DNA of 64,000 nt from Myxococcota bacterium (lineage in GTDB: Bacteria > Myxococcota_A > UBA9160 > UBA4427). The stretch covers positions 1-64,000 of the forward strand of contig JANQEL010000106.1 in NCBI GenBank assembly GCA_028278345.1, written 5' to 3'. The translations under genes were made by a program, and so were the position numbers. This document shows positions 7,543 to 10,403 of this stretch, in pieces (the first letter of the stretch is position 1; the number at the start of each line of letters is the position of its first letter). The notes under the pieces were generated by a model. The model was not told where the DNA came from. It was given only the letters and a program-made list of their open reading frames with translations, and searched no databases.

Positions 7543-8154
7543 TCAAGCGAAGGAATCCGGTCGATGGCGAATCAGCTCCATGAACTCGGCACGGGTCTTC
7601 GAGTCGCTGTTGAACACCCCTCTCATCGAACTCGTGATCGCGAACGAGTTGTGCTTCTCGACGCCGCGCATCACCATGCAAAGGTGCTTGGCTTCGACCA
7701 CGACGCCGACACCCTGGGGACGCAGCACGTCTTCGATCACCCCCGCCACCTCCATGGTGAAGCGCTCCTGCACCTGCAGCCGGCGCGAGAACATGTCCAC
7801 CAGGCGCGGGATCTTCGAAAGCCCCACCACCTTGCCGTTCGGGATGTAGCCCACGTGGGCGCGCCCGAAGAACGGCACCATGTGATGCTCACACAGGCTG
7901 TAGAACTCGATGTCCTTCACCAGTACCATCTCGTCGTACTCGACGTCGAACATCGCGTTGTTCAGGGTTTCGATCGGGTCCTGTCCATAGCCCTTCGTGA
8001 AGAAGCGCATCGCAGCGGCCACCCGCTTCGGGGTCTTGATCAATCCGTCGCGCTCGGGCTTCTCGCCCAGTTCGCGCAGCATGACCTTCACCACGTCGGT
8101 AATGGGGTCGTCGTCGAGACCTTCGATCTCGTCGATGTCGTCGGCCTGGCTCAT
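7543..8154 (-). CDS. folE: GTP cyclohydrolase I (FolE)
   Basis: A 203-residue enzyme converting GTP to 7,8-dihydroneopterin triphosphate, the entry step to folate, queuosine and biopterin. The zinc ligands are visible as C88 and H91 in [10 protein letters not shown] and C159 in KHLCMVMRG, matching the positions known for E. coli (C110, H113, C181). The catalytic His of the CEHH motif is present. Length matches bacterial type IA enzymes. Its ATG overlaps the stop of the upstream PTPS gene by four bases, so product and next-step enzyme are translated together. Confidence 0.97.
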
Positions 8155-8567
8155 CGTTCGTCTCCATACTCGAAAAAGTTGCGCGGAGTTTCGGTGAGTC
8201 GGACACGCACGAGTTCGACATCACCCTCTCCCGCAATGGCGGGCGCGAGGTCGTCGTAGACGATCTTTGCGAAGTTTTCTGTGGTGGGAACCAGCGCCTC
8301 GAACGCTTCGCAATCGTTCAGCAGGCGGTGGGAGTAGCGCTCGGCGATGGTCGACTCGAATAGCGCATCGAGTCGCTCGGGCGGGAGGATCTGTCCCGTC
8401 ACGGGGTCGACCGGGCCCCGCACGGTGACCTCGAAGCCGTAGTTGTGACCGTGCCCGTTCTCGTTGGCGCACTTGCCGAAGATCTCGTCGTTCTCCACTT
8501 CGGTCAGACGCGGGTTCGCCAACACGTGGGCGGCGGGCAATCGGTAGCAGCGGGTGAGTTCGATCAC
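8151..8567 (-). CDS. 6-pyruvoyl/6-carboxy-tetrahydropterin synthase with CxxExxHGH motif
   Basis: A 138-residue COG0720 (PTPS/QueD) protein. Zinc ligands are H14 (LPAAH) and H39/H41 (HGHNY). The catalytic region reads C33-A-N-E36-N-G-H-G-H, the CxxExxHGH motif described for bifunctional PTPS-I/III proteins, in which the Cys serves the QueD-type reaction and the Glu permits the PTPS-III reaction bypassing FolB. I place the start at GTG 8565-8567; upstream in-frame sequence belongs to the neighbouring gene's region. It ends in a four-base overlap with folE, its substrate-supplying enzyme. No queC, queE or folB is seen in this window. Confidence 0.88.
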
Positions 8568-8599: not shown

Positions 8600-9007
8600 T
8601 CAGGCGTCGCTGCCGATGGCGTCGACGTAGAGGTCGGCGTCCTGATACAGGCGCAGGCGGTCGAAGCGTCCTTCGGGAAGCGCGGCGACGAGCAGCTTCT
8701 GGATCACGGCCGCGAGGTTTTCGGGCGTGGGGGGCACTTCCTTGAAGAACTCCGTGTCCGCATTGAGGTCGCGATGATCGAAGCGGCGCATCACTTCGCG
8801 CTCGAGGATGGCCTTCAGGTCGACGAGATTCATCACCATCCCGGTGCGCGGATCGGGCTCGCCCTTCACCGTCACCTCGAGGCGATAGTTGTGCCCGTGC
8901 TGCTCGGCCGCGAGGCCGAACACCTCGCGGTTCTCCGCCTCGGAGAGACCCGCCGCGCGGTAGCGCAGGGAGGCCGAGAACTCGATTGCCCGGGTGAGGT
9001 GAACCAA
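8600..9007 (-). CDS. Divergent PTPS/QueD paralogue lacking catalytic Cys and one zinc His
   Basis: A 135-residue COG0720 homologue, first gene of the pterin operon. It keeps the HGHNY pair (H37, H39) and the fold-defining E-V-T-V-K-G and DHRDLN stretches. At the first zinc-ligand position it has L14 (FSASLRY instead of FxAAH). The catalytic Cys position of the neighbour is replaced by Ala, and a Glu (E35) sits only two residues before HGH. It is therefore unlikely to do the standard reaction, and may be a partner subunit or a new activity. The start is TTG at 9007, with AGGG eight bases upstream. It shares clear similarity with the adjacent PTPS gene, so the pair is a tandem duplication followed by divergence. 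Confidence 0.82.
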   Translation of the reverse strand: MVHLTRAIEFSASLRYRAAGLSEAENREVFGLAAEQHGHNYRLEVTVKGEPDPRTGMVMNLVDLKAILEREVMRRFDHRDLNADTEFFKEVPPTPENLAAVIQKLLVAALPEGRFDRLRLYQDADLYVDAIGSDA

Positions 9008-9146
9008 CGTGTAAACCCTTGATTTTCAAAGGGGTTGAGAAGGCGCAAGGGTGCCAACGGGCGATTCTCGCGTCAAGCTACGCGAGCAGCGCGTTGGCGG
9101 GCGGTCCGCGAACGCCAGCCGGATTCCCATCGGAGAGACTCTCGCC

Positions 9147-10403
9147 ATGGCGACCCACAGCAAGTCGACGCCCCGAACTCTCGACCGCCGCTCCTTCCTG
9201 CGGAAGACGCGCGACACCGCCATGGGGATCGCCGCACTCGGCGCGGCCGACCCGGTCTCCGCGGCGGTCGGCGCCAAACCCGAGATCCGTCGCTACCGCA
9301 CGCTGGGCAAGACGGGCCTCGAAATCTCCGACATCGGTTTCGGTTCGGCGGGCTGCCGGAGCGCCGACCTGGTGCGTCACTGCTACGACGCCGGCGTCAA
9401 CTACTTCGACACGGCCGAGATGTATCGCACCGAAGGATGGATGAGGGGCGACTACGTCGAGAACGTGTTGGGCCAGGCGCTTCACGACAAGCGCGACAAG
9501 GTCGTCATCGCCACCAAGTACGCCACCCAGGCCAACCACGATCGCGCCCACATCATGAAGGAGCTCGAAGCCAGCCTACGGCGCCTGCGCACCGACTACG
9601 TCGACGTCTTCTTCAACCACGCGGTGAACGATGTCGATCGCATGGCCAACCCCGAGTGGCACGAGTTCGTCCGCCTGGCCAAGAAGCAGGGGAAGATCCG
9701 CTTCGCCGGGATGTCGGGGCACGGCGGTCGGCTGCGCGAGTGCCTCGACTACGTGCTCGATCGCGACCTCGCCGACGTGATCCTGTGCGCCCACAACTTC
9801 GGCTCCGACCCCGCCTTCTACGAACGCCTCACGAAGAGCTTCGACATGGTGGCGAACCAGCAGGGACTCCCGGAGCGGCTCGCGAAAGCGCGCGCCAAGG
9901 GGGTCGGCGTCATCGCGATGAAGACCCAGATGGGCGCGAAGCTGAACGATCTCTCCGTCTACCAGAAGGACGGCGCCGACTTCGCGCGCGCGGCCCTGCG
10001 CTGGGTGTTCTCCGACCCGAGCGTCGACGCCGCGATCGTGTCGATGCGGAACAAGTCGATCGCCGACAACTACATGGCCTGCTCGGGGGACGAACAGTTC
10101 GCTCGACGCGACTTCGAAGTGCTCGAGAGGTACGTGGCGAGGACGAGCACCGAATACTGCCGACCCGGCTGCGATGCCTGCCACGAGAGCTGTCCGCACG
10201 ATGTGCCGATCGCCGACGTGCTGCGACAGCGCATGTACGAGGAGCGCTACGGCAACCCGCGCATGGCACGCCAGGGCTATGCGCGTCTGGGGGCTGCGGC
10301 CTCCGCGTGCACGACCTGCACCGAGCAGAGTTGCCTGGGCAATTGCCCCTACGACCTCGACATCCCGAAGCTCACGCGCGACACCGCACGCCAACTAGCC
10401 TGA
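9147..10403 (+). CDS. Tat-exported aldo/keto reductase with C-terminal Fe-S cysteine clusters
   Basis: A 418-residue protein. Residues 14-20 (RRSFLRK) form a twin-arginine motif followed by a short hydrophobic stretch, so it is probably exported folded. The barrel begins near residue 47 (RTLGKTGLEISDIGFG). The aldo/keto reductase tetrad is visible as Asp and Tyr in NYFDTAEMY, Lys in ATKY and His in FFNHAV. The last ~80 residues contain two cysteine groups (CRPGCDACHESCP and CTTCTEQSCLGNCP) that resemble ferredoxin-type 4Fe-4S ligands. The start is ATG at 9147 with GGAGA upstream; a longer reading to 9051 would bury the Tat motif. Such fusions occur in many environmental bacteria; the substrate is unknown. 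Confidence 0.88.
   Translation: MATHSKSTPRTLDRRSFLRKTRDTAMGIAALGAADPVSAAVGAKPEIRRYRTLGKTGLEISDIGFGSAGCRSADLVRHCYDAGVNYFDTAEMYRTEGWMRGDYVENVLGQALHDKRDKVVIATKYATQANHDRAHIMKELEASLRRLRTDYVDVFFNHAVNDVDRMANPEWHEFVRLAKKQGKIRFAGMSGHGGRLRECLDYVLDRDLADVILCAHNFGSDPAFYERLTKSFDMVANQQGLPERLAKARAKGVGVIAMKTQMGAKLNDLSVYQKDGADFARAALRWVFSDPSVDAAIVSMRNKSIADNYMACSGDEQFARRDFEVLERYVARTSTEYCRPGCDACHESCPHDVPIADVLRQRMYEERYGNPRMARQGYARLGAAASACTTCTEQSCLGNCPYDLDIPKLTRDTARQLA

Follow-up and report, generated by a model that had tools for sequence, protein, structure and literature searches.

A candidate split-site 6-pyruvoyl-tetrahydropterin synthase encoded by two adjacent genes with complementary active-site losses

Introduction

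What is the function of a protein that has the fold of 6-pyruvoyl-tetrahydropterin synthase (PTPS) and a recognizable motif of that enzyme, but has lost a zinc ligand and the catalytic cysteine? The question is raised by a gene, here termed B, in a stretch of 64,000 nucleotides from a Myxococcota bacterium (contig JANQEL010000106.1, positions 1 to 64,000; the window), where it adjoins a paralogue, A, and folE. The first-pass annotation of the window had offered two answers, a non-catalytic partner that forms mixed oligomers with an active PTPS, or a new pterin activity of B itself.

The architecture of PTPS bears directly on the choice. According to PMC7546909, the active site lies between three adjacent monomers and the hexamer consists of two trimers arranged head to head, and mutating any of His23, His48 or His50 is stated to abolish metal binding and activity (PMC10767420). 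The title of Burgisser 1995 (cited in PMC7546909, PMC2229834, and PMC10767420) refers to an “intersubunit catalytic triad motif” in rat PTPS. Residue positions of the site are given throughout in rat PTPS numbering, taken from the alignment of B and A to the rat protein. The triad reportedly consists of Cys42 of one chain together with Asp88 and His89 of another, and we take this Asp and His to be the residues aligned here with Asp77-His78 of B.

Results

B is encoded at 8600..9007 on the minus strand, as are A and folE, by an open reading frame of 135 amino acids with a TTG start. Its score of 87 bits against PF01242, where the Pfam cut-off is 22.4, places it in the PTPS fold family (PF01242 / COG0720). 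The AlphaFold2 model, based on an alignment of 51 sequences, has a mean pLDDT of 96.3 and a pTM of 0.90, superposes on the T-fold of human PTPS (Z 21.7, rmsd 1.4 Å, 133 residues), and shows 35–41% identity to animal PTPS structures. The fold and the HGHNY motif that were read in B from the outset are thus both borne out.

Set against rat PTPS, the site of B is incomplete. Leu14 (8966..8968, minus strand, in the FSASLRY block) replaces the zinc ligand His23, as the first-pass annotation had seen, and Leu occupies this column in all 46 readable members of the order, so that B alone does not provide the three zinc histidines (23, 48, and 50). His37 and His39, both within HGHNY, align with His48 and His50, and the HGH part of the zinc site is retained in the order (His48 in 46/46, His50 in 45/46) with the third ligand gone in all. 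A replacement His or Cys ligand was sought in 25 aligned B proteins and none was found: His37 and His78 are invariant and His39 nearly so, and there is no conserved Cys. Ala33 (8909..8911, minus strand) lies in the column of the catalytic Cys42, and B alone has neither this Cys nor a PTPS-III-type Glu in its place. The Ala is as previously described, but it is one of ten different residues found in a column that is among the most variable in the B family. Gln122 (8642..8644, minus strand) replaces the pterin-anchoring Glu133, and Glu is present here in only 3 of the 46 B proteins of the order. This alignment confirms the losses at the zinc and Cys positions and adds that of Glu133. The Leu in the zinc column is far beyond chance, given its occurrence in 46/46, a dN/dS of ~0.08–0.10, and a confident model that superposes on human PTPS. 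B keeps Asp77-His78 (8774..8779, minus strand), corresponding to Asp88-His89 of the triad, and both HGHNY and FDHxDL are invariant or nearly so across the B proteins.

A Glu two residues before HGH had been regarded as unusual, but relatives have E, H, R, D, S, K, P, A, T, and others there, and because the position is variable we reject this Glu as a nucleophile of the PTPS-III kind. PTPS-III (Plasmodium, ExxHGH) resembles B in lacking the catalytic Cys, but is described in PMC2229834 and PMC5041015 as having a Glu three residues before HGH and keeping the zinc His, whereas B reads AAEQHGH, with a non-conserved Glu at –2, the first zinc His gone, and no ExxHGH. Against TIGR03367 (PTPS-I/QueD), both B (60.2 bits) and A (52.8 bits) fall below the cut-off of 89.25, and the CxxxHGH motif of that class appears in B without its Cys.

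The paralogue A (8151..8567, minus strand) starts 32 bases after the end of B, is 38% identical to it, scores 93.4 bits against PF01242 (cut-off 22.4), and gives a model with a mean pLDDT of 94.1. It carries the zinc, Cys, and anchor half of the site (His14, Cys33, His39, His41, and Glu126) and the PTPS-II motif Cx5HGH, which is absent from B. Its stop codon overlaps the start of folE (ATGA), and folE (7543..8154, minus strand; PF01227, 255 bits) encodes GTP cyclohydrolase I, which makes dihydroneopterin triphosphate, the PTPS substrate. The earlier statement that B lies next to a normal paralogue and folE therefore holds for the adjacency of both genes but not for the normality of A. Specifically, Ser79 of A (8331..8333, minus strand) replaces Asp88 of the triad while His80 is kept, and A alone does not assemble Cys42-Asp88-His89 in one chain. 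The operon folE is usually the sole full-length folE in a genome. The window's own genome has one further match of the GTP cyclohydrolase I kind (153 bits; G000:C262:62528-62965), which is more distant, and several relatives have similar ones. On the other side of B, a divergent gene at 9051-10403 on the plus strand appears by eye to encode a protein resembling aldo-keto reductases, its N-terminus Tat-like and its C-terminus rich in Cys.

Among 40 genomes (the window's own and 39 relatives), B was found in 31, own included. A is adjacent in the tandem order B-A in 30 of these 31, the exception (G017) lying at a contig end, and folE follows A directly in 29 of the 31 by tally (exceptions G015 and G017). 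At E ≤ 1e-30, B occurs in 24 of 188 sampled genomes of the phylum; 22 belong to the order of the window, its own genome among them, and the other 2 to a different family of the class. When the scan was widened to GTDB species genomes it yielded 80 loci, nearly all from genomes that are metagenome-assembled by title. B is under purifying selection: three pairwise comparisons within the genus gave dN/dS values of 0.08–0.10 for B and 0.09–0.15 for A, with B below A in two and nearly tied in the third, and over 11 comparisons the ranges were 0.024–0.309 for B and 0.031–0.565 for A (computable in 9 of the 11).

We compared the seven site residues within 75 B/A pairs from several phyla, comprising 46 from the order, 14 others, and 15 fused pairs from Nitrospirota; most of these share descent and are not independent counts. 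Loci with A beyond the contig end (L079), A cut (L066) or B cut (L086), and two on the same contigs as L050 and L054 (L142 and L143), had been dropped beforehand. In the 46 pairs of the order, His23 is present in A only (46/46), and Cys42 and Glu133 each in A only in 43 and in both partners in 3, while Asp88 is in B only in 43 and in both in 3, and His89 in B only in 11 and in both in 35; at none of these five sites is there a pair in which neither partner has the residue. His48 is in both partners in 46/46, and His50 in both in 45 and in A only in 1. The 14 other pairs are closer to complete, with His23, His50, and Asp88 in both partners in all 14, His48 in both in 13 (A only in 1), Cys42 in both in 8 (A only in 6), His89 in both in 11 (B only in 3), and Glu133 in both in 11 (A only in 3). 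In the 15 Nitrospirota fusions the losses run the other way: residues are present in B only in 8 (His23), 11 (Cys42), 11 (His48), 3 (His50), 2 (Asp88), 11 (His89), and 9 (Glu133, 14 readable), and at every site none is in A only and none in neither.

Hence, no position is lost in both partners of any of the 75 pairs, and Asp88-His89 is kept by B in 75/75, including all 49 B proteins without Cys42. In A, Asp88 has been replaced by Ser, Ala, Gly, or Glu, and His89 by any of seven residues, with Asp88-His89 retained in 3/46 A proteins of the order (those of L063, L073, and L077). The single-type copies among the loci retain all seven residues in 22/22 cases. The two proteins serve as built-in controls for one another, since the loss of Asp88 from A indicates that the fold does not need it, and the losses from B indicate the same for His23, Cys42, and Glu133.

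In a tree of 137 proteins, rooted at the midpoint only, the first members of the pairs form one clade (57 rows, support 97/90) and the second members, together with 17 stand-alone Nitrospirota copies, form another (74 rows, 96/95). Across the relatives the alignment reveals graded intermediates between complete copies and complementary halves. Both copies are complete in pairs from Acidobacteriota and Nitrospirota; in L140 and L141, from another family of the window's class, B lacks Cys42 and Glu133 and still has His23, and A is complete. In the A proteins of Methylomirabilota (L089-L091, one lineage) Arg replaces His89 with B complete, and from the residues this is a second, separate loss of the Asp-His half. 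Parsimony on a tree of 157 rows built without the catalytic columns gave counts of 3 for His23, 5 for Cys42, 2 for His48, 2 for His50, 6 for Asp88, 10 for His89, and 4 for Glu133, counts for which we claim no significance. One-chain B-A fusions were found in a Chloroflexi-titled MAG (L087), a Proteobacteria-titled MAG (L098), and in Nitrospirota (L093, L094, and 15 more). Such a pair does not generally end in complementary splitting, since in 11 of the 15 fusions from Nitrospirota it is the A domain that lacks Cys42, His48, and other residues, with B complete. Most of these Nitrospirota genomes (L122-L136) contain a stand-alone copy elsewhere in addition to the fused two-domain PTPS, and the idea that such copies mark lineages that lost B was rejected because the fused B-A protein is also there in most of those genomes. 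Likewise, an intact A had been expected in genomes lacking B, but these contain a different PTPS and no A.

Discussion

We propose, with a probability of roughly 60%, that A and B each supply half of a single PTPS, an obligate hetero-oligomer in which B lends its Asp-His in trans. The catalytic Cys, the Glu that anchors the pterin, and the zinc site with its three His would come from A, while B, whose own site would be dead, would provide the Asp-His of the catalytic triad. Because the PTPS triad is built across the subunit interface, each A site could borrow Asp77-His78 from a neighboring B, and the residues absent from the A site are exactly those that B keeps. With Asp88 lost from A in 43/46 pairs and Asp-His kept by B in 46/46, B probably contributes catalytic residues in trans, and the invariance of these residues asks for a use elsewhere, since the site of B is dead and A shows that the fold does not need them. 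The simplest closed form would be a hexamer in which a trimer of A sits on a trimer of B (A3B3), giving three working sites, because two kinds of subunit cannot alternate around a three-membered ring, and if the triad crosses the trimer-trimer interface every A site would meet a B. The assembly would convert the FolE product, dihydroneopterin triphosphate, to a tetrahydropterin. In human PTPS, Glu81, surrounded by Lys77, Met85, and Gln86, is placed at the trimer-trimer interface by PMC9597361, and this region lies a few residues before the Asp-His. At rat position 76 (human Lys77) the A proteins have Asp in 46/47, 14/14, and 15/15, and the B proteins mostly have Lys or Gln. This charge pattern fits stacking of A3 on B3 but is suggestive only and not proof, since stand-alone copies of the A type also have Asp.

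The relatives may also preserve the order in which such an enzyme would have arisen. Duplication in tandem, or fusion, would have come first; the B site would then have died and B would have lost His23, with the by then redundant Asp88 of A going last. The full proposal, that of an obligate A3B3 PTPS with its intersubunit triad divided between two genes and a readable record of the passage from homomer to heteromer, we regard as evenly balanced. A alone may retain some activity, judging from the 3/46 A proteins that keep Asp88-His89 and the 35/46 that keep His89. It should be noted that B retains HGH despite the lost third ligand, which the split-site model does not account for and which counts against it.

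The first alternative gives B the role of a pseudoenzyme, structural or regulatory, in mixed hexamers with A, where it would serve stability, capping, or allostery and lend no catalytic residues; A would then work through the His89 that it has itself, or do without the Asp. The His89 of most A proteins, and the three with the full Asp88-His89, would allow this, and MetCaCb metformin hydrolase (arginase family) offers a precedent. In the account of PMC11271267, it is a hexamer encoded by adjacent duplicate genes in which one partner lacks the metal ligands and is a metal-free pseudoenzyme, neither partner is active alone, and MetCb caps the substrate cavity of MetCa. In the A/B pair, B is instead predicted to give the triad Asp-His. 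Indeed, a purely structural role leaves the retention of Asp88-His89 in 49/49 B proteins without their own Cys hard to explain, when A shows that the fold can spare them, and we consider it unlikely, if worth keeping in view. This also decides what stands of the earlier suggestion of a non-catalytic partner for an active PTPS: partnership is favored by the conserved tandem order, the B-A fusions, and the complementary losses, but the residue pattern speaks against both a fully equipped A and a non-catalytic B.

The second alternative, which treats the two proteins as separate enzymes, with A a PTPS that tolerates the loss of Asp and B a new pterin enzyme or binder using HGH and Asp-His, strikes us as improbable. 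The near invariance of HGHNY and FDHxDL would be compatible with some remaining chemistry in B, but B lacks the zinc His23 in 46/46 and Cys42 and Glu133 in 43/46 each, with ten residues at the Cys column, and separate functions would not call for a strict tandem order, fusions, or losses in A and B that complement each other. For want of His23, Cys42, and Glu133, a new activity of B alone is unlikely, and of the two answers first offered for B the mixed-oligomer partner is the better supported by the residues and gene order. Finally, B as an ordinary decaying duplicate on the way to a pseudogene, for which the loss of several catalytic residues might speak, is already refuted by its conservation (dN/dS 0.08–0.10, 31/40 genomes, model pLDDT 96.3).

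Paralogous subunits that complete each other's active sites are known in the trypanosomatid deoxyhypusine synthase pair and in the yeast NAD-isocitrate dehydrogenase IDH1/IDH2. These have other folds and reactions and are not PTPS. The PTPS-II and eukaryotic enzymes (rat 1b66/1gtq, human 3i2b) share with B the fold, HGHNY, and Asp-His, and with A the Cx5HGH, three zinc His, Cys, and anchor Glu. Eukaryotic PTPS is the product of one gene and a homohexamer with six sites, whereas the A/B pair has the components of its site spread over two genes. The open literature searched contained no description of a PTPS that is heteromeric or split.

The residue pattern suggests that what either of the two neighboring copies has lost from its active site the other has kept, and that they work only as one mixed complex. 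If so, neither gene could be annotated alone, and automatic annotation would call both PTPS/QueD, each dead by itself. The loci would also form a natural series that begins with two complete copies, passes through pairs with one dead site, and ends in complementary halves. Such a series would be of use in studying how an enzyme with a triad already shared across a subunit interface passes from redundant homomers to obligate heteromers.

The product of the pair is probably 6-pyruvoyl-tetrahydropterin, as indicated by the Cx5HGH of A, which is given as the PTPS-II signature in PMC5041015. A role in folate or queuosine synthesis is unlikely. Replacement of FolB was rejected as the likely role because FolB is present in 31/31 B-carrying genomes and in 1 of the 9 without B, and in genomes carrying B, QueC gives weak, partial matches (E 1e-6 to 1e-3). 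A separate CxxxHGH protein occurs in four B-carrying genomes. A role in supplying BH4 to aromatic hydroxylases was also rejected, the biopterin-dependent aromatic hydroxylase (PF00351) being found in 0/40 genomes. The pair would therefore point to a tetrahydropterin pathway in an order with neither this hydroxylase nor a convincing QueC in its B-carrying genomes. In every one of the nine genomes without B there is a single PTPS, and it is of the ExxHGH (PTPS-III) kind. At these loci (L033-L041), which have no A/B pair, the single PTPS reads ERLHGH and has an insertion, and as 8 of the 9 lack FolB, PTPS-III seems to have replaced FolB within one bacterial order.
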